Source: a virus. From it: a stretch of 37,122 bases of DNA. Below, piece after piece: positions 1-37,122 of the stretch (its first letter is position 1; each line of letters opens with the position of its first letter). Both the position numbers and the translations under genes were made by a program. The notes under the pieces were generated by a model that ran no database searches, was not told the origin of the DNA, and saw nothing but the letters and a program-made list of their open reading frames with translations. Location of the stretch: positions 1 through 37,122 of IMG/VR virus record IMGVR_UViG_3300030451_002463; one strand, 5' to 3'.

Positions 1-45
1 TATGAGTCTAGGTGACCCTTCGATGTGGGCACGAAATCCAATGAG
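1..45. repeat. Terminal direct repeat, left copy (circle closure)
   Basis: These 45 bases recur at the right end (37078-37122) with only two differences, at positions 22 (G versus A) and 37 (T versus C). Both fall at third codon positions of the terminase gene and are silent (Ser TCG/TCA, Asn AAT/AAC). The reading frame continues through the join, so this is best read as the overlap of a circular or circularly permuted genome and not as a biological terminal repeat. Confidence 0.9.
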
Positions 46-454
46 CTGGAATGCATCGCATACACCCATGTACACAGACAAGTCTATAGCAACAGCATTA
101 GGGCAGTTTGTACCAAACCTAGTACCAGCGAATAACTCGAGGGTAATAGGGTGGAGAAACATGGCACAGCTAATGCACTATAAGAAGGGAGTATTGCCGA
201 ATTTCTTTATTATAGATGGGGCGTGTCCAAACTTAACAAGGACGCTACCAGAGATGATAAGAGATGACAAGAACCCAGAGGATATAGACACTACACTTGA
301 AGACCATATCTGTGATGCTGTGAGGTACAGCTTAACGCATATAGATGCACCAATTAAGCCAGCACCTAAAAAGCCAGTATTACAGCAACAGATTGAGAAA
401 TTATTAGAGTTTGAAGAAAAAGATGACACAATAGATTTTAGGGGAATGAATTAA
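2..454 (+). CDS. terL: Terminase large subunit, C-terminal part (continues from 36134)
   Basis: This is the C-terminal 150 residues of the packaging ATPase/nuclease that begins at 36134 and is cut by the window ends. Joining the two parts through the 45-bp overlap gives one frame of about 465 residues, a normal size for large terminases. The segment opens with a GDPSMW motif whose Asp is a likely second acidic residue of the RNase-H-like nuclease domain. Near the end, an EDHICDAVRY stretch fits the usual third conserved acidic position. The stop overlaps the next ATG as TAATG, indicating coupled translation. It is a partial gene only because of where the circle was opened. Confidence 0.9.
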   Translation: MSLGDPSMWARNPMSWNASHTPMYTDKSIATALGQFVPNLVPANNSRVIGWRNMAQLMHYKKGVLPNFFIIDGACPNLTRTLPEMIRDDKNPEDIDTTLEDHICDAVRYSLTHIDAPIKPAPKKPVLQQQIEKLLEFEEKDDTIDFRGMN

Positions 455-2856
455 TGTACACTGGTAGTCCACATATAACAAATTTTAGTGCAAGACAAGC
501 AGTTCACGCAGAGCTACAATATGATATTTATGGTGCGTGTCCAGTCTATATAAATGTAGAGTACGATGCAACCTCTCACAACAATATGAAACTAACAGCA
601 ACCCCTTCTTTCATGCCAGCAAATGCAACTAGTTATCTTGGTGCATATAGGGTAAAACAAGGTAGATGGGGAATCGTAGAAAAAAAGGCAAACGCTGGTG
701 ATATAGTTGAGGTTGTTCTACAAGGTAGAGTAAAGTTCCCAAATTCATTACAAGAATCTGATAAAGGTAAGGGAATAACTGCATTTAAGCCAACTCAAGA
801 AGTGAAAGAAAATTCTCCAAGCAATCATACTCAACACTTTTGTCGCCCAAATTGTCAATCACTAAATCAAGGTACAAGCGAAAGAGATAGTTTGGTAAAC
901 ACTCTTGGGGTAGTGGTTGAAATTGGTGATGATGGAGAGTTTATAATATGGCAGGGCGTACAAACCCCACAGATATCAGATTACTCTCATGGAGAATCAC
1001 ACAGAGTTCAAGCAAAGCTAGTAGGGACATACGATGGAGGGGATAACGCCCCTATATCAGCTGGAGTTCCAGTTAGGCTATATCTAGACGAAAATGGTGA
1101 CTTAAAAGCTAGAGGTGGATTAGAAATTGGACCTCAAAACAACTCTAGTTTTGATTTTATTGGTAATACAAATGCAGATAACTATTACACTCAATCTGGT
1201 CATTGGGGAATATGTGAGACTGGTGGAAATGCTGGTGACGTAGTTGATATTGTTGTAGCTGGTCATGTGCAAACTAATCAAACTAACGTAACTGAAAATG
1301 CCCTTCTTTCACATTTTGAAGGAAATGGTGACTTCTTTTGTTTGGGAAAAGATATTATAAAACATTCAGATGACAGAATTTTGTCAAATGACACAGGTAA
1401 CTGGGTAGGATACAATATAGCAGACGCAAATGTAAATGTAGATGACACTTTTTCTAATGCGATGAAAATAACAACAACTACAGACAATGAAGATGAAGGT
1501 GCACTGCTACCAGTTTCAGAAATGGAAACTTTAGTAGTAGGGAGAAAATATATAGTCTCTGCCTTAATTGACCACTTAGGTAGTGGTAGTATAACAATGA
1601 GATACGAGCTAGGTGGAGCTACATCTAGTGACATAACAGCTACTACTAACAATAGATATTACAGAGCAGAAATAACGTGTACAGATGCCTCTGGACCTCT
1701 TAAAATTTATAGTGTCGCAGAAACAACAGCAAGAGAAATAAAAGTAGATAATATTTTTGTATATGAAAAATACGGAAACACAGTAGACGAGAATGTTGCG
1801 TCTACCGAATATGATTGGATGCCAAACACCTATGGTACCACAGTTAACACTACTGGAAAGATATGTATTTTCCCAGGAGTAAACAGAGCGAGTATAAAAG
1901 ATTTTAAGGAGCAACACATAGTTACAGCAGAGCTTTTTGGAGGCACTTCCTACACAAATGTAACAGCTAGACAACACGCAGTCGCACTATGTGTTAATAA
2001 ATTTGGTAAATTAATGGCTAAACGCTCAGAGATTTCGAGTTCTAGGCAAGACCTGTATGGTCAATATACAATAGCCGACAATATGTGGGGACTTGCGTTA
2101 GAATCAGGAAGCCCTGGCGACACAATTAAAGTTCTTGTGAGTGGTAGAGTTTCAGATGTAAATACAAGCTCAGATGCTACCTGGGAGGTCGGTGATTTAT
2201 TAAGTCAGATTGACAAGAATGGAAAAAAAGAAAGAGTTACAAGCCAGAAATATTCATTTATAACAAGCAGTGACGATAAAACAATAACAGGCTCTCCTAA
2301 CTGGACAGATTACTCTCCTAATACAACTATAGGTGGATTTAATGTAAATACATCATCTGGTAGGGTAGAGATTACAGGTTCAGGAAATGGAAATTATAAA
2401 AACACAGGTGGGACAGGTAAAGAAGGAGCTATACTAGCTAGAGCTAATTTTAGAGAGATGCACATAGATAACACCACTTTTAATGTAGGTAACTATCTAC
2501 CCTATCGTAGAACTTTTTTAATGAAGGCAGATGTATGGTCATCAGGAGGCACACCTCCAAATATTGCCTTTACTGTAAATGAAAGCACAGCATCAAGCAC
2601 TAGAAGCTTTATTCCTCGTGACGCAGATGGCTCTCACGTTGTAACAACAACACAAAAAACTTTTTACGCTTTTGTGCATTCTTATACTGATACAAGCAGT
2701 GGTAGCTATGAAGACTACATGACTATTTCTCAAACAAACAACACAACAGATACATGGTACTTTACAAATGTAGAGCTATTAAATATGCCATATGCTACAG
2801 CAGAGCATTTAGCATTATGTTTAAACTCAAATATTAAGGAGTGGTATATCCATTGA
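454..2856 (+). CDS. Modular beta-rich virion protein 1 (decoration-like modules with jelly-roll insertions)
   Basis: The 800-residue product has no recognised catalytic motif. It holds three copies of a module with a VxAEL/VQAKL strand, then WG(I/L) and GDxVxVxVxG(R/H)V (about 71-93, 251-273, 544-566), closed by an LGVVVE...IIWQGV strand (about 150-170, degenerate at 458-476). Between the module halves lie segments resembling CBM4/9-type jelly rolls at roughly 310-440 (ending VDNIFVYE) and 610-780. It is followed at once by a second protein of the same design. Its position between terminase and portal is unusual for a fibre gene. Capsid or tail decoration that binds surface glycans is an inference; a tail fibre or spike is the alternative. 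The start at 454 overlaps the terminase stop and has an AGGGGA-type site just upstream. Confidence 0.7.
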   Translation: MYTGSPHITNFSARQAVHAELQYDIYGACPVYINVEYDATSHNNMKLTATPSFMPANATSYLGAYRVKQGRWGIVEKKANAGDIVEVVLQGRVKFPNSLQESDKGKGITAFKPTQEVKENSPSNHTQHFCRPNCQSLNQGTSERDSLVNTLGVVVEIGDDGEFIIWQGVQTPQISDYSHGESHRVQAKLVGTYDGGDNAPISAGVPVRLYLDENGDLKARGGLEIGPQNNSSFDFIGNTNADNYYTQSGHWGICETGGNAGDVVDIVVAGHVQTNQTNVTENALLSHFEGNGDFFCLGKDIIKHSDDRILSNDTGNWVGYNIADANVNVDDTFSNAMKITTTTDNEDEGALLPVSEMETLVVGRKYIVSALIDHLGSGSITMRYELGGATSSDITATTNNRYYRAEITCTDASGPLKIYSVAETTAREIKVDNIFVYEKYGNTVDENVASTEYDWMPNTYGTTVNTTGKICIFPGVNRASIKDFKEQHIVTAELFGGTSYTNVTARQHAVALCVNKFGKLMAKRSEISSSRQDLYGQYTIADNMWGLALESGSPGDTIKVLVSGRVSDVNTSSDATWEVGDLLSQIDKNGKKERVTSQKYSFITSSDDKTITGSPNWTDYSPNTTIGGFNVNTSSGRVEITGSGNGNYKNTGGTGKEGAILARANFREMHIDNTTFNVGNYLPYRRTFLMKADVWSSGGTPPNIAFTVNESTASSTRSFIPRDADGSHVVTTTQKTFYAFVHSYTDTSSGSYEDYMTISQTNNTTDTWYFTNVELLNMPYATAEHLALCLNSNIKEWYIH

Positions 2857-5081
2857 TAAACAATTATAAAGCACAGAGAAATGTAAAAGCAGAGCTTTCA
2901 GGAGCAGTAGACCTAGGAGAGCCAGTATCCTTATACATTAAAGAAGATGAGGTTAAATACTCCTCTAAAAATCTAGCTACTAATGGCAAGTTTCAAGATG
3001 GAACTGTAACACCATTCACAACAGGCACTGGTTCTGTCCAGATGGATGTAGTAGAGTTAGCAACCAATCCAGTATCTGGAAGAACATCTCTTAGATTGCT
3101 AGTAGGGGATGCAAATGATGTAGCTCAAGGAGATTTTAATGTTAGCGTAGGAAAAACATATAAATTTAGCTTTAACAGAACAATTCCCAACCACACAACT
3201 GATTCTAAATGCAAATTTAGACTAGGTATCCCAGGCGATGTAGATGCTTATGCAGATTTAATATCATTTACAAGTAATACAACAACTGGTGTTTTTAGAG
3301 AATCTTTTATATTTACAGCAACTAATTCTACTTTAGAATTTAGAATAAATGAGTCTGGAACAGCTAATGACGCAGAAATATTTATAGACGATATACAGCT
3401 TCATGAGGTAGTAGACCACAGCTACAAGCTAATGGCAGTAAATGACACTATCCCATCTCTAAGTGTAAATTTAGAGGCAGTAGGGAGTGAGCTCGGAACC
3501 AATGGCACATTTGAATCAAATGCAGATAATTGGGTCGCAAAAAGCACGACATTAGCACATGAGACATCAGCACCAATTACAGGCTCTGGTAGTATTAAAT
3601 CTACAAATTCAGCTGCAAGTGGTGGTCCATATCAAAATATGGGCTTAGATAGTACAAAGAATTATAAGGTTACTGGAAAAATGAAATTGCTTTCTGGAAG
3701 CAGTAATGGGAGAGTAACTATATACACAAGTAGGTCAAATGGCACAGGTCAAGAAGGTGCATATGAAGGCTCGGCAGGAGAGCTTGTAGTAGGGGGAAGC
3801 GAGGTGTCTTTTGACGTAGTTATATCCCCTACTGAATCAGATAGAGTGTCAATACAGTTTGCAGTTCAAGTTGCAGACGGAGTATTTTTATTAGATGATG
3901 TATCAGTTAAAGAGGTTTATGGATACGACTACTACAACGCACCAGCGTACAAATTTGGCATTGTATCAAGCGTATACGACCAATCTACTGGAGCAATGAA
4001 AACCTCAGGAGTAGCAGGAGATGAGGTAGATGTAACAGTCCAAGGAGAATGTACAGTTAGAAGTCCTTCTCAAAGCAAAACTCAAAACCATCTTATTGGC
4101 ACAATTACTAATAGTGGGGCAATATCAAATTATGCAAAGTCCAATGATACAGTATTACCTAACTCAGTGGGAGTTATGGTAGAAACAACTACTTCGGCTA
4201 CTTCTCACCCTATAATATTATGGCAAGGCGTAGAGTTTTCAGAGCATTTTGTACATAAAAACTCCCTTCAGGTTATGGCTAAGTGTGATGAGACAATAAC
4301 TAAGTTTAGACCAGTGTCGCTATTCCTTGATTCAGAAGGAGACTTACTTTGTAGACACGATGATATTCCAGAACAAGCCCCTGATTCAGATACAGACCAC
4401 ACAGGTGTTGACCCAGGAAAATGGGGCGTAGCCGAGCTAGGTGGCGTGAGTGGAGATATAATCCCAGTAACAGTAGCAGGGAAAACTCATATTAATACAA
4501 GCTTTAATTTAGTAGAAGGAGCTGTCATAAGACAAATAAGGGAAGATGGTGGTCTAATTGAGTCTTCTAACTATTCACAGTATGCACCAAATGCACTAGG
4601 GACAACTTTAGAAACTGGTACAGGCGATGTTCCAATTACAATATTCCAAGGCACTCCAATCGGAACCATTACAGACTGGAAACGGACGATTAAGGTAACA
4701 GCAAAGGCAAATGGAGCTATAACCCAATACTGCCCAGTTTCTTTGTATTTGGACCAATATGGCAACTACAAATGTATATCTGATGACATACCTAATACAG
4801 CTACAGATTTTAATAATGGAATATGGTGCGATTTTAGAAAATGGGGCGTTGCTCAAGAAACTGTCGCTGATGGTGAAAATGTAGAGATAATAGTTCAAGG
4901 ACGTACAAATGTTGTTGACACTAAAGATAGTGGAGATAGAGGAGAATTTGTAAGAAAAATACATAACACTGGAGTTGTTACTACTAACGATAATACAGGG
5001 TATGCACTATCATCTCTAGGTATAGTAGAAAAAGAATCAAAAACCTCAGATGGAGCACCAGGAGTGATAATAATATTTTAA
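2853..5081 (+). CDS. Modular beta-rich virion protein 2 (paralogue of the preceding gene)
   Basis: About 742 residues, with three modules of the same type as the upstream protein. WG(V) plus GD/GExVxVxVxGxT signatures are near 527-550 and 667-690, counted from the GTG at 2841, and a divergent copy lies near 371-405. The first module is interrupted by two jelly-roll-like segments (about 44-190 and 215-360), each opening with NGxF and ending IDDIQLHE or LDDVSVKE, typical of carbohydrate-binding folds. A GTG at 2841 would extend the protein, but it touches the AAGGAG site (2836-2841) directly. The TTG at 2853 has workable spacing and overlaps the previous stop as TTGA, so it was chosen. The protein ends in a bare IIIF strand. 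Role inferred as virion surface or adhesion. Confidence 0.7.
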   Translation: MINNYKAQRNVKAELSGAVDLGEPVSLYIKEDEVKYSSKNLATNGKFQDGTVTPFTTGTGSVQMDVVELATNPVSGRTSLRLLVGDANDVAQGDFNVSVGKTYKFSFNRTIPNHTTDSKCKFRLGIPGDVDAYADLISFTSNTTTGVFRESFIFTATNSTLEFRINESGTANDAEIFIDDIQLHEVVDHSYKLMAVNDTIPSLSVNLEAVGSELGTNGTFESNADNWVAKSTTLAHETSAPITGSGSIKSTNSAASGGPYQNMGLDSTKNYKVTGKMKLLSGSSNGRVTIYTSRSNGTGQEGAYEGSAGELVVGGSEVSFDVVISPTESDRVSIQFAVQVADGVFLLDDVSVKEVYGYDYYNAPAYKFGIVSSVYDQSTGAMKTSGVAGDEVDVTVQGECTVRSPSQSKTQNHLIGTITNSGAISNYAKSNDTVLPNSVGVMVETTTSATSHPIILWQGVEFSEHFVHKNSLQVMAKCDETITKFRPVSLFLDSEGDLLCRHDDIPEQAPDSDTDHTGVDPGKWGVAELGGVSGDIIPVTVAGKTHINTSFNLVEGAVIRQIREDGGLIESSNYSQYAPNALGTTLETGTGDVPITIFQGTPIGTITDWKRTIKVTAKANGAITQYCPVSLYLDQYGNYKCISDDIPNTATDFNNGIWCDFRKWGVAQETVADGENVEIIVQGRTNVVDTKDSGDRGEFVRKIHNTGVVTTNDNTGYALSSLGIVEKESKTSDGAPGVIIIF

Positions 5082-5089
5082 GGTAAACT

Positions 5090-5251
5090 ATGAAAAAAGA
5101 AATGAAATTAAGCAAAGTACAAGAAAGCAAACTAAGTAAACACAAAAAGCATCACTCTAAGAAGCACATTAGAGAGATGATAAAAGCAATGCTAAGAGGC
5201 AGGTCATTTAACTCTGCTCATGGCATGGCAATGGATAAAGTAGGTAAATAA
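5090..5251 (+). CDS. Small Lys/His-rich basic protein
   Basis: A 53-residue, very basic product (KLSKHKKHHSKKHIREMIKAM core) beginning at an ATG 8 bases after the preceding stop. An AAGG precedes the start. No family recognised. It belongs to a set of tiny Lys-rich proteins interleaved with the head genes (also 5261, 7227, 10217, 34757 and 36000). Such proteins could bind packaged DNA or RNA, but nothing in the sequence proves this. It is tightly spaced before another small gene with its own AAGGAG site. Confidence 0.65.
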   Translation: MKKEMKLSKVQESKLSKHKKHHSKKHIREMIKAMLRGRSFNSAHGMAMDKVGK

Positions 5252-9677: not shown

Positions 9678-10157
9678 ATGAGTTTTATAAATACTGGTGG
9701 TATACCTCCTGGTTCATTAACAGATGTTACAACTGAAGCTAAATGGGATTTAGGTAAAGTTGTATGGTCTGAAGATGGCAAGGGCTATAGATATGTTCAG
9801 TTTGCAGATGCAGTAGCTGTACTTAAAGGTCATGTTATGTGCTATGATGCAGCAGGAAACAACATTGTAACTAATGATGTTTCTGAAGATGCAGACAGTA
9901 ACTTGGCAGCAGGTGTTGCATTGGCAGCAGTTGCTACAAATACAACAAGTCCTCAGTATGGCTTTGTTCAAGTATCTGGACATTGCGATACTATCATTAC
10001 AGATGAGAATGTATCAGATGGAGATTTCTTGATACCTGGAACTGCAGATGGTGCTGCACATACAATGTCAGCAGGTGAGGAACATAAAGTATTTGCTGTA
10101 GCTTCAGCAGCCGACTCAGGTGCAGTCGGTGCTGGATGGCTAAGAGGAATACTATAG
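9678..10157 (+). CDS. Capsid decoration (head stabilising) protein
   Basis: A 159-residue beta-rich protein immediately after the major capsid gene. It has the pattern of small phage decoration proteins: a hydrophobic start strand (VQFADAVAVLKGHVMCYDAAG), GVALAAVATN, GFVQVSGHCDTII, then a GDFLIPGTADG turn and GAGWLRGIL end. A GGGGGT-like ribosome site lies upstream. The GVA...GxVxVxG arrangement loosely resembles the repeated WGVAE...GDxVxVxVxGRT modules of the two large proteins at 454-5081, a resemblance worth structural testing. A terminator hairpin follows the gene. Confidence 0.7.
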   Translation: MSFINTGGIPPGSLTDVTTEAKWDLGKVVWSEDGKGYRYVQFADAVAVLKGHVMCYDAAGNNIVTNDVSEDADSNLAAGVALAAVATNTTSPQYGFVQVSGHCDTIITDENVSDGDFLIPGTADGAAHTMSAGEEHKVFAVASAADSGAVGAGWLRGIL

Positions 10158-10520: not shown

Positions 10521-11363
10521 ATGACAGGCAATGAAATGATAACAAGCTTAGGTTACAGACTAGAGGATACTGGTAATGTTAATTTTACTTCAGCACAAAA
10601 ATTAGTAGCACTAAATGATGCACAGCGTCAAGCAGTATCAATGCTATCAAATGATGCACTTGTTCATTTACAGACATCAAGAAGTATGGGAGGTGCAACA
10701 TCGGATACAAGTTTAGGAAATTTAATTTTTTTTAGTTTACCTACAAGCTCTGCAATAATAACAGATGTAACAGCGACAGCAGCAGACCCAACAGTATTTA
10801 CTAAAACTTCGCATGGATTAGTTGATGGGGATGTAGTTAAACTTTATGATTTTACACAAATGACAGAAATTAATGGAATGACAGGAACAGTAAACGAATT
10901 AGACTCAAACACATTTGAAGTTAATGGAGTATCAGCAGACCCTGCAGAAACTTCAGTAGGTGACGACCTAGGTGGGACAGTAGAAAAATTAGAAACATCA
11001 ATGACTAGAGTAGTAAGCGTATATGACGATACTAACGACAGATTTGTAGAACTAACAACAATAGCAGCTATTGGAGACAACACCTCGTATAACTATGGAA
11101 CTAAAGGAGCATTATTTAACAACAGACTTTACGTTTCATCTTCAGCAGCTACATTAGACTGTACTTTAATATATATAACATCTCCTACAAACATAGTAGC
11201 TACAAATACCGAGATAACATATTTAAGTGACTCAGTACAACAGTTAATAGTAGAGCTAGCAGAAGCACTGCTATGGAGACAAGATAATAGACAAAATAGA
11301 GCAAGTGCAGCAGCTAATAATGCAGCAGCAATGATGCAAGTAATTAACGCTCAAGGAGTATAA
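10521..11363 (+). CDS. Head-tail adaptor-like protein with FCCH-like insertion
   Basis: A 280-residue protein. The N-terminus (MITSLGYRLED, FTSAQKLVALNDAQRQAVSML) and C-terminus (LSDSVQQLIVELAEALLWRQD, Ala-rich helix) look like the helical core of phage connector/adaptor proteins. Residues about 88-140 (DPTVFTKTSHGLVDGDVVKL, then NGMTGTVNELDSNTFEVNG) match the FCCH-like beta domain often inserted in phage structural proteins. It sits before the large tail protein and overlaps its ATG. Likely role: ring bridging portal and tail tube. The gene at 15043 is a second candidate for that function. Confidence 0.65.
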   Translation: MTGNEMITSLGYRLEDTGNVNFTSAQKLVALNDAQRQAVSMLSNDALVHLQTSRSMGGATSDTSLGNLIFFSLPTSSAIITDVTATAADPTVFTKTSHGLVDGDVVKLYDFTQMTEINGMTGTVNELDSNTFEVNGVSADPAETSVGDDLGGTVEKLETSMTRVVSVYDDTNDRFVELTTIAAIGDNTSYNYGTKGALFNNRLYVSSSAATLDCTLIYITSPTNIVATNTEITYLSDSVQQLIVELAEALLWRQDNRQNRASAAANNAAAMMQVINAQGV

Positions 11364-15042: not shown

Positions 15043-16011
15043 ATGACATGGGATAAATTAGTAGATAGATGTTTACTTTTTACAGACGCACCAGGTGGTT
15101 TGTTAAAGGAACTTTTAAAAGAAGCAGAATCAGAGTTATCAAATAAACTTGAACTGTATGATGCTATATATACAATAGAAGTTCCAAATACCATAAAAGG
15201 TTTAGGTGTTTATTCAGCAGATACAGGCTCTGATTCTAGTTATACTAAATTGCCAGCAGATTACTTAAGAGATATTTCTGTAATACATCGTGGCTCAAGA
15301 TTAAAAAAAGTTTCTGAATTTGAAATGCATAGACAAACAGATGGAACTATGACAGGAGGGAGCCCAACATCATACTCAATATCTGGAGACTTTATAGTAT
15401 TTAACAGAGAGCCTTCTGCAGGAGAAAAATTTACATTACACTATAAAAGCTCACTGACTGAATATACAACAGATAAGGTATTAAACGTATATCATTATGA
15501 TGCGATTGCAGGCGATTCAAACGATAGAATATTTTTAGATACTCCTCTAGGAGATAAATTGAACACATATCAAATTTGGTGGGAAATAGCTAATTATACG
15601 TTATCAGCAGGGACTACTGTAGGAACAAGCGTTCCTGGCATCCCTGATATTTGGTATGGAAATAAGTCAAAAAATTTATTAAACTCTATAAATTATGGTG
15701 AAATAGCTCATTTGTCAAGATATCAGCTAAATAACGATTTTGGGTCAGAGATAGGGACATCGTCAGCTGATTCTGACACTCAAAATTCTATAGGGTCATT
15801 AGTAAGAGTAGTAAACTATAGAAATATTGCACCTCTTATACCAGATAGATTTCATACTAGCTTATGCGACTACGCAGTAGCAATAGCAAGTGCTAAATCA
15901 GCACCAGATATATATAACACTTATTGGACAAAATGGACGATGAATATGGACAACTTAATTAATGAAGCAATGGATAGAGACCTTATACACAACATTAAGG
16001 AGGAAATCTAA
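15043..16011 (+). CDS. Tail adaptor / connector protein (P22 gp4-like or tubular A type)
   Basis: A 322-residue protein. The central segment (LPADYLRDISVIHRGSRLKK, VSEFEMHR, GSPTSYSISGDFIVFNREPS, FTLHYKS) is the typical pattern of short-tail adaptor proteins: LPxDYL, then the PxxYxIxGxxIxFxPxP-type strand pair and the YY/HYK strand. The C-terminal helix is compatible with portal docking. It overlaps the following ATG and sits between the tail tubular-like and internal virion genes. Together with the 10521 gene this gives two connector candidates. Confidence 0.7.
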   Translation: MTWDKLVDRCLLFTDAPGGLLKELLKEAESELSNKLELYDAIYTIEVPNTIKGLGVYSADTGSDSSYTKLPADYLRDISVIHRGSRLKKVSEFEMHRQTDGTMTGGSPTSYSISGDFIVFNREPSAGEKFTLHYKSSLTEYTTDKVLNVYHYDAIAGDSNDRIFLDTPLGDKLNTYQIWWEIANYTLSAGTTVGTSVPGIPDIWYGNKSKNLLNSINYGEIAHLSRYQLNNDFGSEIGTSSADSDTQNSIGSLVRVVNYRNIAPLIPDRFHTSLCDYAVAIASAKSAPDIYNTYWTKWTMNMDNLINEAMDRDLIHNIKEEI

Positions 16012-16763: not shown

Positions 16764-17564
16764 ATGTCTACAAAAAAAATAAAAAAACATATAAATACAA
16801 TGGGTTTAAATCCTAATAAGGGTTATAAATATAATGATACTGGCGACTATTTTATTACAGATAAAAACGGAAAATTTCTTAGATTTGCATCAGAGAACGA
16901 AGCAAAAAATTATGGTAAATCATTAGAAGAAGAAGCGTTCGAAAAAGCTTTAAAAAAAGAAGAAACTAAAACTATAGAAAATAAAGTAAAAAGAAATAAA
17001 GAAGTTGAAAAATATAAAAGTTCTTCTGAAATTCAACGAGAAAAATATGATTCTTCTATGGATGAATACTTTAAAATAGATGCAAAGCTACAAAAAGAAA
17101 TTGACGCTATTGTTAATAAAAAAGATGCAGCAGGTATACCTGAGAACCAAAATATGGATGTTGCAGATATTATTTCAAATAACCCAAGATTAAAAAACTT
17201 GCAAAAAAATAAAATAAAAGCAATGAAAAAGGCGTGGGCACTATCTCAGTCTGGCGATGAAGATTTTAGAGAAGAAGCTTTAGATGCCTTTGGTGCCTTA
17301 CCTAAACAAGATTTTGGTAAATTTACACCATCAGCATCACCTGGAGTTCGAGAATATTCTGATGCAAAAGAAAAAAGAGAACAACAAATAGATACAAGTA
17401 TGGATAAAGAAGAAATGATGAGAAAAAATATGGATGTTCAGCCTGGCTCATTTTCAACACCACCTAGAACTAGAGAAGAAGTAGCTAGGACTATACCATC
17501 TCAAATGCCAAAAAAGAAAAAATACACAGACGAAGAACTACTAAGGATAATATCAGGTAAATAA
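16764..17564 (+). CDS. Lys/Glu-rich virion-associated protein, unknown
   Basis: A 266-residue, highly charged product, mostly helical. The N-terminus (MGLNPNKGYKYNDTGDYFIT, then FLRFASENEAKNYGKS) could form a small folded domain, followed by a Lys/Glu coiled-coil-like stretch and a disordered C-terminal third. AAAAGGAA is spaced well before the ATG. Its stop overlaps the start of the giant gene (TAATG), suggesting stoichiometric or assembly linkage. I do not recognise the family; a scaffold or ejection partner is a guess. Confidence 0.55.
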   Translation: MSTKKIKKHINTMGLNPNKGYKYNDTGDYFITDKNGKFLRFASENEAKNYGKSLEEEAFEKALKKEETKTIENKVKRNKEVEKYKSSSEIQREKYDSSMDEYFKIDAKLQKEIDAIVNKKDAAGIPENQNMDVADIISNNPRLKNLQKNKIKAMKKAWALSQSGDEDFREEALDAFGALPKQDFGKFTPSASPGVREYSDAKEKREQQIDTSMDKEEMMRKNMDVQPGSFSTPPRTREEVARTIPSQMPKKKKYTDEELLRIISGK

Positions 17565-20500
17565 TGGCTAACCCATTTAAGAATTTATTTAAAAGTAAAT
17601 ATACTACTTTTTACTCAGTAGACGATTTAAACGAAGAACAAAAAAATTACATACGAGATGAGTATGCTAAATATCAAGCAAACCCAGAGCAGTTTGATGA
17701 GCAGTATGGAACAGCTATAGTAGAGCTAGAGAATCGCTTACGAACCCCAGACCCACTACTAAGAACATACGAATCTATAGAAGATGATACTACAGGAAGA
17801 GGAGCATTCCAACAAAGAAGAACAGTAGGGGATAAAAGACTAAGAGTAGCAGCAGAAGCTAAGGGAAGAAAAAAACTTAAAACATCATACTTGTATGGAC
17901 AAATAGAAGACTACGAACCTAAAAATTCATTAACAGATGTACAATCAGTTATAGACCAAAAAGAAGACAAGGGTGAAATACAAAAAGCTGTACAAGAAAT
18001 TGATAATAAAAAAAGACAATATTATGCAGAAAGATTTGGTTATGATTTATATGAAGACAATGGTAATCAAGCTTGGAAACAATGGATAGAAGCAGTAAGA
18101 GATGACCCTTCATTATTAGAAAAAGTTTTACAAAAGTCTCCAAAAATCACAGAAGCTGCACGAGAAAAACCTGGAATTGAAGAGAGTATGCTAAGAAAGA
18201 AATGGCAAAATTCTTTACAAAAAGGAACCCTCGAAGAAGATTTTTATGACATAGATATTAAAGATTTACAGCGAGCACAAGAAGAAAGAAATAAAAAAGT
18301 TTTTGGAGTAAGTGATGCCATAGCAGATATAAAAAATAATTGGGAAAAATATATCCCAGGTGGTGGATTTATAGAAGCTAAAGAACTACTTGATATATAC
18401 GATTTATCAAAAAGATTTGATGAAAACCCTTCATCATTATCTGATGAAGAATTTAATCAATTAAAAAATTGGGTAGAATATCAAGATTTTCAAAGCACAG
18501 CTACATGGAGTGCACAGCTTGTTCAAATGTTAGCACAAATGCCATCTTTTGGAATTGAAATAGCAGCATCTGGTGGAGCAGTATCAATAGCGAGCAAAGC
18601 AGGTAGGGAAGCAACGATTACTGCAATGCAAAAATATTTAAATGAAGGATTAAAAAGAAAAGTAAGAAATGAAGTAAAAGAAAGAACAGCATTAAAAGTT
18701 GCAAAAAGTGCAGGAACTAAAGTTGCTATTACTACAGTAGGGACATCATTATCTGGAGACGTAGAAGTAAATAAAATACGAAATTTAATGCCTGGATATG
18801 AACAGCTAGATGGGGAGCTTTTTAAAATTTATAATGGCATGGATGAACTATCTGCTGAAAGACAAGCATATTGGGGAACATTTTTAGAGTTTGGTTCAGA
18901 GCAAATAGGTGGTGTTCCTGCAAGATTTGCAAAGTATGTAAACAAAACTAAGGTAGGCAAATATACAGGAAAAAAGTTTTCTAAAGCTTGGAATAAATTA
19001 AATCTTTCTAACAAAGAATATTTAATGAGCACAGCAGCAATGAGAGCTTTTAAAAATGCAAATCCAAACGCAAGCAATAAAGATATAGAAAAAATATTTA
19101 GGACCTTTGGTTATCATGGTGTAATTGAGGAGATGTTTGAAGAAAGAGCATCAGATGCAGGAAGACATATTTTAAATCTTTTATCAACAACGAAAGATGA
19201 AAATGGAAAACCATTAATAGAAGGATTTGAAAACAAAAATTGGCAATGGCAAAATCCCACATGGGAACAGCTATCATTAGAATTAGTAGCTTTTTCTGTT
19301 CCAGGATTTGCAAAAAGAAAATTATCTCAGACGTACAACAATATATACGAAGCTAAACAAAATAAAAAAATAGAAGATTTTAATAATAGAAATAAAGATT
19401 TTGGCGAAAAAATTACAGAGGTAGAGCAAGAAGTAGAGAATAATGAAGTAAGACTTGGAGAGCTATCTAATAAAATTGAAGAGGGTGGCATTGAAAGCTT
19501 AGAGCAAGAAGAAATCGTAGAAATAAAAACTATAATGGAGACTAAGCAAAAAAAGAATGTCCTTCAGTTTATGAGAGATTTAATTATAAGAGACCCATCA
19601 TTAGAAAAAGAAGTTGACCTTGATATAAATTTAGACCAAGAAATGCAAAGAACAAAAGAGCAACTAGAGCAAGAAGGAGTAAGTTTAGAGGGAGAAGGAC
19701 TATCAGGAGATATTAAGTCTGTAAATGTTTTAGGCTTTACAATGTTTAATAATTTAAAGCTAAAATTTGGATTAAGAAAAGGTGCTGATTTAGATACAGC
19801 AATAGAAGAATATTATGGAGCATATTACAGAGGTGGTCTCACAGAAGAACAAAGCGATACTTTTGAGCAGCATTACGATAGGTACGAATCTGATGAAAGT
19901 TACAGAATAGAGGTAAACGAATTTATTAATGATATGATGGAAGATATGGGTATGTCAGATAAAAAAATTGCTGATGTATCCCAAACCCTTACAGAGCAAG
20001 AATTATTTGAAAAAGAGGGCAAATCATACGAATATAAGAGCACGCAAGAGGAAAGAGGTGGCATAGCTGACAAAACTTTCCAATTTATAAGTAATATGTT
20101 TAATAGAGCGTTTAAAAGCGTAAACGTCTCAGCAGGAGTAGCTGATATATATAAGCAGGTACAAAAAAGAAAAGAAAGAATTTCTGCAGAGCGTGCACAA
20201 AAATTAGAAGCAAGAAGGGCAAAAAGGCAAGAACGTCAAGAAGAAAAACAGGCGAAGCGTGAAGCTAAAGAAACTGCCAAAAAAGAGAAGCAAGAAGCTA
20301 AAGAAACAGAAAAGCAAGAAAAGCGTAAAGCTAAAGAAACTGCTAAAGAAGAGAAGCGTGAAGCTAAACAAGATAGAAAGCGTAAAAGGTTAAGACCTGG
20401 AGTTGAGCCTACATTAGATGAAAGATTTGATGACGCACAATATGAAGATTTGCCAGAAACTACCCTTAGTGATTTAGGTCCACCTAGAAGACCAAAAACA

Positions 20501-23500
20501 AAAATAACTGAAGATGAAAGATTTGATGACGCACAATACGATGAGGTTGCCGAGCCAGAGCTTGAAGACCTACCAGATATAGTACCACCTAAGCCTAAAG
20601 AAATTAAGGAAAGAAAAAAACAGGCTAAAAAAATTAAGTCAAAGCCAAAATTATTTAACTTTCTTAATCGTAGAGCTCGTAAGCTTGCTCGTAAAAAAAT
20701 TGAAACAATATCTCCTGTAGCAATTAGAGAGGTAAAAACAAAGCTAGAGCAACAAGCTCCTAAGCAGGTAATACCAGATGACCCTAGACAGCCACTGGAA
20801 ATACTAAGAGATATACTTGGTGATGAGCAGTTCCAGGATTTAACTGGTATATATACAGGTCCAATACAACAAATAGAAACTATAGAGCCACGAATAATAG
20901 AGACTCTAAAGGAGAAATTTGAACCCCTGCCATATGAATCACTAGACTTCTTTGATGTAATACCAGAAAAGAAACAAGAACAAATACTTAAAGAGGTAGA
21001 GAAAAAGGTAGGCAAAGAAACAATCAAACCTATTAGAGACCTTAAGAAGCCTAAAAAGCCAGGAGTAAGAGTAACTGAAGATGAAACATTTGAAGATGCA
21101 ACTTACGATAATGTGCCAGAAACAATTTTAGAAGAACTTCCAAACTTAGAAAAGCCAAAAAAGAGGAAAGCTAAAAAGAAAGATACAAGCTACCAAATTG
21201 TTTCAATAGATAAAGCAGAAAACGAAGGAACATTTATAATAGCTGGAGATGCAGCTAATTTGAATTTAAAAGGTGAACAAGAAGACTTTGGAATTAGGTA
21301 CCCAAGAACATATAAAGGATGGGCAGTAACAAAAGCACCAGCTACTAAAATAAAAAACCAAGCTGACAAGGGTAACAATATAATAGCAATAACAACCCTT
21401 ACCGACCCAGCTAATTCTATGAAAAACAATCCTACGTTTATAGAAGCTTTAAAAAGAGCAGCTATAGAAAATGTGGGTGTAAGAAAATTTAATCAACTTT
21501 TCAAAAAAAATAAAAATAATATACATAAAACAGCTACAGAAGCTAAGGTAAATATGAAGCAAGTTGGCAGAGAAACTTCTGTCCCAGACTTCAATCAAAT
21601 AGCAGGAAAAATTGTTGCAGTTGCTGAAGTAGAAGACATTAGAACTGGAGACGACAGAAAAATAAAACATCCAGCTTATGACCACGAAATTAACTTTAAA
21701 AGCTATAGAGAATTAAAAGAGCCAATATTATTAAAGGACTATGTCGGAGAGCTAAAAGAGGGTGATAAAAGAATAGATTATCCATTTTTAATGGCAAAGA
21801 CATACAATTTAGCAATCACAAACAAAGAATCTCCTACTACTAATTTATTTAAAGAATTTTTAGATACAGGGGACAATAGTTTATTTAATGTAAAGACCAC
21901 AGGTATACAAGTTGCAAGTCCACAAATAAAAGATATAGGTTTAGATGAAGCTGTAAAAGGAATCAAGAGTAAAGACTTGATAAATTTTCATAGATTTGTT
22001 GCAGATTTAGAAGTTGAACAAGGATTGAAATCAACAACTAAGTCAAGCCTAGGTGAGTGGGAAACTGGTGCAGAGCCAAGCCTTTACACAGAAATAACAT
22101 CAGAAATAGATTCTGAACAATTAGAATATATTGCAGCAGCAAAAGGGCTATCAAGACAGCAATTAACTGTGTTAAATTTTAAAGTAGATGAGGCTGGTCC
22201 AGATAGTATGTATGAGGTAGAGTTAGATGTCAATACAGCCAATTTAAAAACATATACAAAAATGTTAACAAGGGCTGGGGTAGAATTTAAAACATTGCCT
22301 ATAACAGGAAATAAATTTAATTTAGTTGTTGTAGATGTGGGTAATGAATTAGTAGATTTATTTAAGGAGGCATCAGATGTCAAAGAAATTAAACAAAGAA
22401 CTGGCAAGGCGAGCTTTATTGGGTCTTTTGAAAGCAGACAAAAAGCAGACAAAGAGTACCTTAAAATCATCACAGAGTACGAACAAAAATATCCAGAACG
22501 ATACTCAGCAGTTCTTAGGAACAACATATCAAATCTCAGACCAAGATTTAACAAAAATCTCCTCCCCAAAAAGCAAAAAGCCCCTAAAGTAAGCTACCAG
22601 CTTAAACCAACTGGAAAACCACTAGATATATATGATGAAATAACTGGAAAAGAAAAGTTTGGATTAAGACCAAAAGGACCTAGAAAGTTAATTAAATATT
22701 GGGAATCTGGAATAATACCAATATCAACACTACTTAAAAGAATAGACCCAAAAATATATTCCTTTCTTTTAAAGCATCAATATAGTGTAGCAATAAGAAC
22801 CAACCAAGCTAAAGAAGATATTATACTCTTAGATAAAATGATTAAACGAATGTCTAAGAAAGACCAAGTTGCATTTAAGTTAGCTATGTTAAACAGTGAT
22901 GGTACAACTCTTAGAGACCTAGCACAGAAATACGATAAGAATGAAGATTTTACAAAAGCTTTGTCAAATGTAAGGCAAGTATTAGATGAACTAAGAGACC
23001 AATTAATAGAGGTAGGAGAGGAAGTAGGCTTTATAGAAGAGTATTATCCAAGAAAGGTTACAGACTATGATGGATTAATAACAGAATTATATGGGGATAG
23101 CGAAGTAAAAGCCTTAATAGAAAAACAAATAGCAGAAAAAGAAAAGAACGAAGAAAGAAAACTATCTGACTCAGAAAAAGCAGACTTAATCAATAAGCTA
23201 ATTAGAGGCTATTCCTACATAAAATCTAGACCATCTTTTATAAAGACAAGAAAGCTTGATACAATAACACCAAAAATTGCAGAATTTTACGAGGACCCCA
23301 TTATCCAACTAAATAACCACATGGAAAGAGTTGTAGAAAGGATTGAGAATAAAAAATTTCTTGGAGCAAGCGAAACATCAGATGAGTCATTAGGTGATTT
23401 TATACAAAAAATTATTGACTCAGGAATTAGCTTAACAGATGCACAACAAAAAGATTTAATGAGAATATTTGGTGCATACTTTAATTTTGAACCAACTAAC

Positions 23501-24841
23501 AGCACATTAGGAGCAATAAAAACTGGAACATATGGTATTTTACTTGGAAGATTTACAAACACTATTACACAAATGCAAGACATGGTTTATGGAATATATG
23601 AAAATAAATGGAATCAAATAAGAACCATAAAAAACCTCGTCAATTATTTTAAAGGAAAGATAGTAGAGACAGAAAGAGTAAAAAGAGCTGATGTTGGTGC
23701 AGACATGATAGGACAAGAATTTAAAATAGAAACTAAGTCTGGATTTGAAAAGTTTATGAATGGAAGTACAAACATAATACTTACAGGCTCTGGATTTAAA
23801 TTAATGGATGGACTCGGCAAATCTGTATTGATTAATAGTGCAATCCAAAAATATAAAACTAAAGCAAAGAAAAACAGGTTATCTAAAAAGGATAAAGACT
23901 ATTTAAAAACATTATTTGGAAACAGTTACGACCAGGTCATTGAAGAGCTAAAAGAAGACACTAGTCCTAGCGAATATACAGAGAACGAATTGTTCATTGG
24001 CTATGCAACCTTGTTAAAATATCAGCCTATAGGAAGAACAGAAGTACCATTAAAATACTTAGAATCAAAAGGTGGTAGAATTTTATATATGCTAAGAACA
24101 TTCTCTATAAAACAGCTTAATGTTTTAAGAGATGAGAGTATGGATATATTAACAGGAAAGCAAGTAGGAAATGAAAAAATGGCATTATTTAATTTATTTT
24201 ATCTTGTAGGCTTAATGACTATGGCAGGAGCAGGAGGAGATGAGATTAAAGATTGGATTAAAGGAAAATCATCATCCATATGGGATAACGTACAAGACAA
24301 TTTGCTTAAAATAATTTTAATAAATAAATATTGGACATCTAAAGTTCAAAGAGAAGCTGCATATAAAGGATATATTAAATCAACTTTTGATAATGTAAAA
24401 AATCTTTTAATAAGTGTTCCACCAATAGATGTAACTATAGATTTTATACAAGGAGTTACAGAGTTTATTTTCAAAGAAGAAAACGATAAAAAGAAAAGCA
24501 AGCTTACGAGATACATTCCTTGGATAGGAGATGTAGTATATAGTAGAAGAGAATGGTCTGAGTTTACAGGTGTAGGTGGTAGAGGTAAAGATGATTATAC
24601 ATACAGAGAGTTAAACTCACTTTATAAAAAATCTTATACAGAGCAAAAAGAATTAGATAAAAGAGAGTTACGAGTATATACTCAAAGTCTACTTGATGCA
24701 TTAAATTACCCTCAAACAAAGTTAAGAAAAGGTAAAGAGGTAAGAAAAATTAATATTGAAAAACATTACAATCATTTGAATGGTAAATATAATATACAAA
24801 TAGGCAAAAATAGTAAAGGCAAATATGAAAAACTCAATTAA
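17564..24841 (+). CDS. Giant internal virion / polyvalent-type protein (2425 aa)
   Basis: This single frame takes about a fifth of the genome. The N-terminus is hydrophilic. Residues about 310-450 include small hydrophobic helices. About 865-945 is a Lys/Glu/Arg KEKE-type coiled coil, followed by three copies of an acidic motif (D-E-x-F-D/E-D-A-x-Y near 951, 983 and 1172) with Pro-rich spacers. The C-terminal third resembles large phage polyvalent or internal proteins: GFIEEYYPRKVTDYDGL (about 1822), a hydrophobic GILLGRFTNTITQ (about 1990), and LRTFSIKQLNVLRDE followed by a short membrane-like helix (about 2172-2220). I see no polymerase, protease or lysozyme motif. Ejection into the host with the DNA is inferred from size, position and neighbours. 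Confidence 0.7.
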   Translation: MANPFKNLFKSKYTTFYSVDDLNEEQKNYIRDEYAKYQANPEQFDEQYGTAIVELENRLRTPDPLLRTYESIEDDTTGRGAFQQRRTVGDKRLRVAAEAKGRKKLKTSYLYGQIEDYEPKNSLTDVQSVIDQKEDKGEIQKAVQEIDNKKRQYYAERFGYDLYEDNGNQAWKQWIEAVRDDPSLLEKVLQKSPKITEAAREKPGIEESMLRKKWQNSLQKGTLEEDFYDIDIKDLQRAQEERNKKVFGVSDAIADIKNNWEKYIPGGGFIEAKELLDIYDLSKRFDENPSSLSDEEFNQLKNWVEYQDFQSTATWSAQLVQMLAQMPSFGIEIAASGGAVSIASKAGREATITAMQKYLNEGLKRKVRNEVKERTALKVAKSAGTKVAITTVGTSLSGDVEVNKIRNLMPGYEQLDGELFKIYNGMDELSAERQAYWGTFLEFGSEQIGGVPARFAKYVNKTKVGKYTGKKFSKAWNKLNLSNKEYLMSTAAMRAFKNANPNASNKDIEKIFRTFGYHGVIEEMFEERASDAGRHILNLLSTTKDENGKPLIEGFENKNWQWQNPTWEQLSLELVAFSVPGFAKRKLSQTYNNIYEAKQNKKIEDFNNRNKDFGEKITEVEQEVENNEVRLGELSNKIEEGGIESLEQEEIVEIKTIMETKQKKNVLQFMRDLIIRDPSLEKEVDLDINLDQEMQRTKEQLEQEGVSLEGEGLSGDIKSVNVLGFTMFNNLKLKFGLRKGADLDTAIEEYYGAYYRGGLTEEQSDTFEQHYDRYESDESYRIEVNEFINDMMEDMGMSDKKIADVSQTLTEQELFEKEGKSYEYKSTQEERGGIADKTFQFISNMFNRAFKSVNVSAGVADIYKQVQKRKERISAERAQKLEARRAKRQERQEEKQAKREAKETAKKEKQEAKETEKQEKRKAKETAKEEKREAKQDRKRKRLRPGVEPTLDERFDDAQYEDLPETTLSDLGPPRRPKTKITEDERFDDAQYDEVAEPELEDLPDIVPPKPKEIKERKKQAKKIKSKPKLFNFLNRRARKLARKKIETISPVAIREVKTKLEQQAPKQVIPDDPRQPLEILRDILGDEQFQDLTGIYTGPIQQIETIEPRIIETLKEKFEPLPYESLDFFDVIPEKKQEQILKEVEKKVGKETIKPIRDLKKPKKPGVRVTEDETFEDATYDNVPETILEELPNLEKPKKRKAKKKDTSYQIVSIDKAENEGTFIIAGDAANLNLKGEQEDFGIRYPRTYKGWAVTKAPATKIKNQADKGNNIIAITTLTDPANSMKNNPTFIEALKRAAIENVGVRKFNQLFKKNKNNIHKTATEAKVNMKQVGRETSVPDFNQIAGKIVAVAEVEDIRTGDDRKIKHPAYDHEINFKSYRELKEPILLKDYVGELKEGDKRIDYPFLMAKTYNLAITNKESPTTNLFKEFLDTGDNSLFNVKTTGIQVASPQIKDIGLDEAVKGIKSKDLINFHRFVADLEVEQGLKSTTKSSLGEWETGAEPSLYTEITSEIDSEQLEYIAAAKGLSRQQLTVLNFKVDEAGPDSMYEVELDVNTANLKTYTKMLTRAGVEFKTLPITGNKFNLVVVDVGNELVDLFKEASDVKEIKQRTGKASFIGSFESRQKADKEYLKIITEYEQKYPERYSAVLRNNISNLRPRFNKNLLPKKQKAPKVSYQLKPTGKPLDIYDEITGKEKFGLRPKGPRKLIKYWESGIIPISTLLKRIDPKIYSFLLKHQYSVAIRTNQAKEDIILLDKMIKRMSKKDQVAFKLAMLNSDGTTLRDLAQKYDKNEDFTKALSNVRQVLDELRDQLIEVGEEVGFIEEYYPRKVTDYDGLITELYGDSEVKALIEKQIAEKEKNEERKLSDSEKADLINKLIRGYSYIKSRPSFIKTRKLDTITPKIAEFYEDPIIQLNNHMERVVERIENKKFLGASETSDESLGDFIQKIIDSGISLTDAQQKDLMRIFGAYFNFEPTNSTLGAIKTGTYGILLGRFTNTITQMQDMVYGIYENKWNQIRTIKNLVNYFKGKIVETERVKRADVGADMIGQEFKIETKSGFEKFMNGSTNIILTGSGFKLMDGLGKSVLINSAIQKYKTKAKKNRLSKKDKDYLKTLFGNSYDQVIEELKEDTSPSEYTENELFIGYATLLKYQPIGRTEVPLKYLESKGGRILYMLRTFSIKQLNVLRDESMDILTGKQVGNEKMALFNLFYLVGLMTMAGAGGDEIKDWIKGKSSSIWDNVQDNLLKIILINKYWTSKVQREAAYKGYIKSTFDNVKNLLISVPPIDVTIDFIQGVTEFIFKEENDKKKSKLTRYIPWIGDVVYSRREWSEFTGVGGRGKDDYTYRELNSLYKKSYTEQKELDKRELRVYTQSLLDALNYPQTKLRKGKEVRKINIEKHYNHLNGKYNIQIGKNSKGKYEKLN
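20417..21110 (+). repeat. Internal acidic motif repeats in the giant gene
   Basis: A 26-base stretch is identical at 20417-20442 and 20513-20538, encoding DERFDDAQY, and a diverged third copy at about 21080-21110 encodes DETFEDATY. Each is followed by an acidic/Leu segment and a Pro/Lys spacer. Near-identity at DNA level of the first two points to recent duplication. They may be binding motifs for a partner protein. Confidence 0.8.
22377..22592 (+). CDS. Possible nested small basic protein (second frame of giant gene)
   Basis: A 71-codon frame lies in the +1 frame of the giant gene. Its ATG is preceded by a perfect AAGGAGG (22364-22370) with 6-base spacing, better than many real genes here. 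The product is Lys/Ser/Thr-rich (begins MSKKLNKELARRALLGLLKA). The main frame reads this site as Lys-Glu-Ala, so chance is possible. No family recognised, and the enclosing frame is certainly coding. Confidence 0.25.
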   Translation: MSKKLNKELARRALLGLLKADKKQTKSTLKSSQSTNKNIQNDTQQFLGTTYQISDQDLTKISSPKSKKPLK

Positions 24842-36137: not shown

Positions 36138-37122
36138 CAGATGTAATCTGGAAACCTCATGAAGGTGCCCAGACATTTGCCTTACAAGTCGGAGATGTAT
36201 ATGAGTGCTTGTATGGTGGTGCAAGAGGTGGAGGTAAGACAGATTGTGGAATGGCGTGGCTGTTAAGAGCTACAGACAATCCAGATGCTAGAATGCTAGT
36301 AATTAGAAGAAATGCTGATGACCTTGCAGACTGGGTAGATAGAGCACATAAGATGTACCCTCATGCAAAGGTAACTGGGAAACCAGCAACAATAAAGTTT
36401 CCCTCTGGAGCAATAATAAGATGTGGGCATTTAAAAGATGAGAGTGCCTACACAAAGTATCAGGGACATGAGTACCAGAGAATATTAATAGAGGAGCTCA
36501 CCCAGATACCATCAGAAGAAAGCTATTTGAAATTGATATCAAGTTGTAGAAGCACAATAAAGGGACTAGAGCCTAAGGTGTTCTGTACAGCAAATCCAGG
36601 TGGTAAAGGTCATCAATGGGTAAAGAGACGCTTCATACAAGGTCATAAGCCTAAGGTGGCGTTTAAAGAGGGTAATTCAAGGTATAGAATGTATATACCA
36701 GCGACGGTAGACAATAACCCTACTCTCATGGAAAATGACCCAGATTACGTTGATTTCCTAGAGAATCTACCAGAGCCATTACGCTCAGCGTGGAGACATG
36801 GAGACTGGGATATATTTGCTGGTCAGTATTTTACTGAATGGAACCCTAAGATGCACGTCATACCAGAGGATGTAGCTAAGAAGTTCGGATATGGTCAGAG
36901 CTTTAATAAAAAGTACATCGGTATTGACTGGGGTTTTAGTGCACCATTTGCGTGTATATGGATAGAGGTAACACCAGACAACAGAGTATTCTGCTATAGG
37001 GAGCTATATGGAACAGAAAAGCACCCTTCAGAGTGGGGACAAGAAATAATGAATATGACTGGAGATGAGGAAATATTTATGAGTCTAGGTGACCCTTCAA
37101 TGTGGGCACGAAACCCAATGAG
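36134..37122 (+). CDS. terL: Terminase large subunit, N-terminal part (continues at 2-454)
   Basis: The packaging motor that translocates DNA into the prohead and cuts it. The ATPase domain has Walker A GGARGGGKT (28-36), Walker B RILIEEL (116-122) and coupling motif TANPGGKGHQW (152-162). The nuclease domain starts at YIGIDWGFSAPFACIW with Asp265 as the first acidic residue. The gene runs off the window after MSLGDPSMW and resumes in frame at the left end. The joined product is about 465 residues. The start overlaps the tiny upstream gene (ATGA). Confidence 0.92.
   Translation, partial: MTDVIWKPHEGAQTFALQVGDVYECLYGGARGGGKTDCGMAWLLRATDNPDARMLVIRRNADDLADWVDRAHKMYPHAKVTGKPATIKFPSGAIIRCGHLKDESAYTKYQGHEYQRILIEELTQIPSEESYLKLISSCRSTIKGLEPKVFCTANPGGKGHQWVKRRFIQGHKPKVAFKEGNSRYRMYIPATVDNNPTLMENDPDYVDFLENLPEPLRSAWRHGDWDIFAGQYFTEWNPKMHVIPEDVAKKFGYGQSFNKKYIGIDWGFSAPFACIWIEVTPDNRVFCYRELYGTEKHPSEWGQEIMNMTGDEEIFMSLGDPSMWARNPM
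37078..37122. repeat. Terminal direct repeat, right copy (circle closure)
   Basis: This copy matches positions 1-45 except at 37099 and 37114, both silent third-codon changes in the terminase. It shows that the sequence wraps. Confidence 0.9.

Follow-up and report, generated by a model that had tools for sequence, protein, structure and literature searches.

Two adjacent genes of this virus encode large proteins, P1 and P2, that we consider, with a probability of roughly 0.6 and on sequence grounds, to constitute a capsid-surface adhesin, in which two three-unit decoration chains would display interchangeable glycan-binding domains. The window, i.e., the whole stretch of 37,122 nucleotides analyzed (IMG/VR record IMGVR_UViG_3300030451_002463), is judged from its genes to be the genome of a short-tailed phage with an SU10/P22-type portal (Pfam SU10_portal, 8e-34) and an SU10-type adaptor (gene at 15043; SU10_adaptor, 2e-8). 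Both ends of the window (1-40 and 37077-37122) fall within the terminase gene and share a repeat of ~40 bases with two mismatches; therefore, the record is probably a complete genome, circular or circularly permuted. P1 and P2 are placed between terL and the portal gene, inside the structural gene cluster, and the positions 454-5081 that an earlier sequence-only reading had assigned to the two proteins were borne out (Table 1).

The most likely start of P2 is TTG 2853 and not GTG 2841, because the motif TTGAT(A/T)AA(C/T)AA(C/T)TA is kept there in 15/15 loci (14 relatives and the window), including those in which P1 is missing and terL directly precedes P2. The AAGGAG at the junction resembles a ribosome-binding site, a purine-rich stretch being present in most of the 15 loci, and the translation of P1 and P2 may thus be coupled. 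A frameshift fusion of the two was ruled out by eye and by the conservation of the P2 TTG even without P1.

Table 1. Features of the P1/P2 locus in the window (P2 amino acid positions are counted from GTG at 2841)
Feature	Positions	Strand	Description
P1	454-2856	+	ORF of 800 aa
P1 unit 1 (U1)	454-954	+	Core only, with a loop of ~50 aa; hhalign P against U2-U6, 7.8e-5 to 4.4e-8
P1 unit 2 (U2)	955-1878	+	Core plus jelly-roll insert; hhalign to U5, P 2.5e-15
U2 insert	1336-1776	+	P1 aa about 295-441; CBM4/22-like jelly roll (predicted)
P1 unit 3 (U3)	1879-2853	+	Core plus insert; PF09956, E 2.2e-6
U3 insert	2302-2793	+	P1 aa 617-780; beta-rich
P1/P2 junction	2836-2864	+	AAGGAG inside the end of P1; TTG 2853 overlaps the P1 TGA stop
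P2	2853-5081	+	Probable TTG start at 2853; ORF listing begins at GTG 2841
P2 unit 4 (U4)	2853-4229	+	Core broken twice; hhalign to U5, P 1e-10
U4 insert 1	2961-3413	+	P2 aa 41-191; CBM_4_9, exchangeable
U4 insert 2	3471-3926	+	P2 aa about 211-362; CBM22/CBM4-like fold (predicted), exchangeable
U4 exchangeable loop	4056-4154	+	10 types in 15 alleles; equivalent to the loop that carries the inserts in P1
P2 unit 5 (U5)	4230-4664	+	No insert; hhalign U5-U6, P 6.1e-18
U5 exchangeable loop	4491-4580	+	9 types among 15 alleles
P2 unit 6 (U6)	4665-5078	+	No insert; unit homology by hhalign; Phage_cement_2, E 0.014, below cut-off
U6 exchangeable loop	4926-5006	+	5 types among 14 alleles

When profiles of the six units, from which the inserts had been cut, were aligned in every pairwise combination, homology was detected by hhalign in 15/15 pairs (P 7.8e-5 to 6.1e-18), whereas the controls, in which the units were aligned with five unrelated proteins of this phage (portal, capsid, adaptor and two from the tail region), gave P >= 0.028. 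The sequence-only reading was therefore right in regarding the proteins as 3+3 copies of one module. P2 used as a query against the window also recovers P1 (6.8e-11), and exactly three units were counted in every complete P1 and P2. The full-length AlphaFold models of P1 and P2 were poor (mean pLDDT 53 and 47), so they were used for the insert folds only; hits in fold searches fell mainly on the CBM inserts, with the core too poorly modelled for comparison with the lambda gpD-like beta-tulip.

The sequence relationships of the core support a cement-like protein, kin to decoration proteins. U3 exceeds the curated cut-off of Pfam Phage_cement_2 (PF09956; 28.4 bits against 24) and is alone among the six units in doing so, U6 reaching 16.2 bits and the others being tied to the family via their homology to U3; in P1 relatives the same family was matched in 10 of 12 at E <= 0.1. 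The core also matches the head decoration family phrog_122 (E 0.03), and no tail family is found among its family matches. Furthermore, a profile built from P1/P2 units only found single-unit homologues just downstream of the major capsid gene in several relatives (L005, L008/L044, L026 and L050), with hhalign controls at P >= 0.22. These comprise the 142-aa proteins of L005 and L044 (about 2e-8; hhalign P 1.1e-8), located directly 3' of the capsid gene and present also in L026 (99% identical), and, one short gene further from the capsid gene, a pair in L050: a 137-aa protein (3517-3930; 1.1e-12, hhalign P 8.8e-13) and a 191-aa protein (2927-3502; 2.3e-7, hhalign P 1.7e-7). A third candidate in L050 (3930-4382, 150 aa) is marginal (P 0.0045 and 0.001). 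Taken with the U3 match, these homologues in the slot after the capsid gene support the earlier proposal that the proteins were grown from decoration modules. Unlike Phage_cement_2, a family of single small domains whose genes adjoin the capsid gene, P1 and P2 carry three fused units per chain with domains inserted in loops, and their genes lie between terL and the portal gene. The relatives suggest a route from single decoration genes to fused three-unit chains. In L050, the consecutive small genes at 2927-5221 (191, 137 and perhaps 150 aa) resemble an unfused three-unit chain.

The loose resemblance of the core to the product of the gene at 9678, claimed in the sequence-only reading, was not found: hhalign gave P 0.05-0.65 against the six units and 0.41 against their combined profile, and this protein was rejected as kin of the units. 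It groups instead with a 171-aa protein of L017 (hhalign P 2e-11), and it is 96% identical in L038 and 32% identical in L037, with the 142-aa unit protein in its place in L043 and L044. Thus some relatives carry, in the gene slot of the 9678 product, proteins kin to the P1/P2 units. This slot (window 9678-10157; L005 14885-15313; L044 11146-11574; L041 1778-2338) holds several unlike proteins, while the capsid protein keeps 81-86% identity; judging from these genes, the decoration slot is itself swapped between phages. A relative of the 9678 product in L006 matches the cement of E217 gp24/Pam3 gp6 type (PF22758) very weakly (E 0.05), and that group bears no detectable relation to the P1/P2 units. 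Two genes after the capsid gene, large fibre-like proteins were seen in L059 (11886-12899), L106 (4014-5258) and L081 (8307-9665), one of which apparently, by eye, ends in a self-cleaving chaperone-like domain.

All four inserted domains that had been proposed were confirmed, at three loops instead of the two originally described. The U2 and U3 inserts follow the GxxIxxIxxxG strand, ahead of the closing strand; U4 insert 1 lies within the D-x-x-G hairpin after PVSLY, and U4 insert 2 between DxIP and the WG-equivalent strand. P2 matches the Pfam family CBM_4_9 (PF02018) at 1.5e-11, and in relatives the family was matched, at E <= 0.1, in 9/13 P2 and 4/12 P1 proteins. Structures of CBM4/16/22 could be placed on 3/4 inserts with agreeing boundaries (Z about 11-14, on models weak overall), and most inserts form one diffuse family joined by BLAST and profile matches. 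Individually, U4 insert 1 matches CBM_4_9 at 8.4e-8 and CBM4/CBM22 structures at VIA Z 12-13, and U4 insert 2 a CBM22 at VIA Z 13.7 (rmsd 4.2); the U2 insert resembles BiXyn10A CBM1 (VIA Z 12.8, rmsd 2.8 over 131 residues) and P2 insert 2 of L025 (BLAST 4e-18), reaching only E 0.017 against CBM_4_9 on its own. In these models, the three inserts have the CBM4/16/22-type jelly-roll fold. The U3 insert, whose low-confidence model shows strands and which is tied to other inserts by a single weak profile match (P 3.9e-4), is probably a jelly roll as well. The earlier idea of glycan-binding jelly rolls is thus supported in fold and family, rather than in binding, for at least three of the four inserts; from their family, we infer that the inserts may bind sugars or polysaccharides. 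Their likeness to CBM families 4/9, 16 and 22 (PF02018 and solved structures) lies in the fold and, for several inserts, in the family profile; in contrast to those families, they ride on a viral scaffold and not on a glycoside hydrolase, and are putative ligand-binders.

Across relatives, P2 appears as a conserved scaffold, with core segments of 77-92% mean identity, interrupted by five cassette sites (two inserts and three loops). Using a 55% identity threshold, on which together with the alignment the type counts here and in Table 1 depend, and relatives that are metagenomic contigs from IMG/VR, some of them partial, we distinguished 7 types among 14 alleles for U4 insert 1 and 9 types among 15 alleles for U4 insert 2. 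Among 14-16 alleles, no pair shares both insert types; 13 pairs share that of insert 1 only and 8 that of insert 2 only. Insert identities are largely bimodal (79-97% within a type at insert 1, mostly 10-25% between types), some different-type pairs at insert 2 being intermediate, and the U6 loop, with many intermediate pairs, is the least clear cassette. At the DNA level, identity to the window falls from ~90% to 20-55% inside the cassettes and recovers at their edges. The combinations of types suggest that inserts and loops of P2 have been exchanged among related phages. P1 stays about 76-94% identical among relatives, inserts included, except in L005.

P1 is optional by gene content, for it is missing in L006, L025 and L027, where the terminase gene abuts P2. 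In more distant capsid relatives, terminase and portal genes are usually adjacent or parted by small unrelated genes, and no units were detected between them; P1 and P2 therefore seem to have been added within a single clade, and all their occurrences seen here are in IMG/VR contigs. A protein that by eye resembles an M15 peptidase occupies that interval in two of the more distant relatives (L048 5700-6323 and L051 1702-2259). No relative of P1 or P2 was found in 50,697 phage records, none of U5-U6, the 142-aa protein or the L050 proteins among isolated phages, and none in cellular genome contigs; when PDB sequences were queried with P1, P2 and the unit profiles, nothing useful came up. In the open-access literature, we found no paper describing decoration units in tandem with inserted CBM domains, nor any reporting that a decoration protein exchanges cassettes, and relative to that literature the three-unit fusion, the loop-inserted domains and the combinatorial exchange are new. 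The earlier remark that this is not a described family accordingly applies to the architecture. Each of the two building blocks belongs to a known family, and other phages are known to have cement proteins, proteins with CBM domains, and capsid surfaces or coats that bind glycans.

Two such systems are instructive. T4 Hoc and Hoc-like head fibres (PMC10385173) likewise combine a conserved capsid-binding part with variable, modular domains on the surface that presumably interact with the environment; Hoc, however, consists of one capsid-binding domain and a string of Ig-like domains, whereas P1 and P2 bear CBM-type jelly rolls in the loops of three scaffold units, and Pfam and PHROG scans found no Ig-like or Hoc family in them. 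In mycobacteriophage Douge (PMC13033339), the virion surface is covered by many glycan-binding domains that aid adsorption; there, it is the major capsid and tail proteins that bear the Ig-like and other domains, and the passages of that report consulted here describe neither a separate multi-unit decoration chain nor cassette shuffling.

How such a coat might work can be outlined as follows. Decoration genes fused into three-unit chains would still dock on the capsid, the units holding P1 and P2 on its lattice, and each chain could plausibly form a covalent pseudo-trimer, since the unit number is constant at three and decoration proteins are mostly trimers, the commonest kind (PMC7602432). 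Exposed scaffold loops would accept CBM-type domains, so that the CBM4/22-type jelly rolls (two in P1 and two in P2) and one variable loop per P2 unit face outward, where they would bind polysaccharides belonging to the host envelope or to the surroundings. Several decoration proteins help attachment via carbohydrate binding (PMC7602432); surface polysaccharide binding by P1 and P2 would bring about reversible adsorption, so that virions accumulate at cells prior to engagement of the tail. The conserved core segments of P2 may serve as crossover sites for recombination between related phages, which would keep reshuffling a combinatorial set of binding specificities. That the head, instead of the tail, carries in this way a recombinable repertoire of glycan specificities, built on the covalent three-unit P2 scaffold with its five exchangeable sites and the optional P1, is a more tentative proposal, which we regard as possible. 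It counts against a P1/P2 coat that a 9678 protein unrelated to the units already occupies the decoration slot, with which this second coat would need to coexist.

That the P1/P2 genes lie between terL and the portal gene, away from the capsid gene, counts against a capsid coat and is also what lends some weight to a different placement: P1 and P2 could be receptor-binding appendages attached to the tail or neck, having borrowed a decoration-type beta fold, with CBM domains that set host range on the tail. Phage CBM-type domains are common in tail proteins, many of the named viral fold matches were tail proteins, and receptor-binding proteins characteristically exchange cassettes. Nevertheless, the family matches of the core point to head decoration and none to the tail, and the single-unit homologues sit in the neighbourhood of the capsid gene, so we hold this placement to be unlikely. 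A secreted or cell-surface role late in infection, in which the proteins would compete for or mask host glycans and not belong to the capsid, is compatible with P1 and P2 being known here from genes alone; against the cement homology, the place in the structural gene cluster and the lack of any secretion signal noted by eye, it seems highly improbable.

A coat on the capsid might also be mainly structural, reinforcing the capsid or spacing and dispersing the particles, with CBM-like domains as mere spacers that vary by drift or by escape from recognition. Jelly rolls do occur in many proteins that bind no sugar, and Hoc aids the dispersion of T4 particles (PMC10385173). Whole-domain swaps between well-conserved flanking cores, together with the lack of any shared pair of insert types, fit selection for binding diversity better, and P1 with its inserts is conserved outside L005, hence not every insert is evolving by drift alone; we judge a mainly structural coat improbable. 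The determinants of phage host choice are generally looked for in tail fibres. If the preferred reading of P1 and P2 as a head coat with recombining sugar-binding domains is true, host-range prediction from tails only would miss a major determinant. The P1/P2 scaffold also indicates that whole domains are tolerated at defined loops of a decoration protein.

Elsewhere in the genome, a jelly roll suspected by eye in the 1189-aa protein at 11363 is not claimed here (only P 0.006 to one insert cluster, no Pfam hit). A 2425-aa protein (17564-24841) has no PHROG or Pfam match, and only pieces of it are similar in relatives (e.g., 97% over a quarter in L039 and 40% over a third in L044, in loci that may be cut). 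The tail-region protein at 10521-11363 matches Pfam E1_FCCH (2e-8); its relatives are of ~280 aa, or of ~200 aa with matches covering less than half of it, a pattern suggestive of an internal domain that is gained and lost among them.
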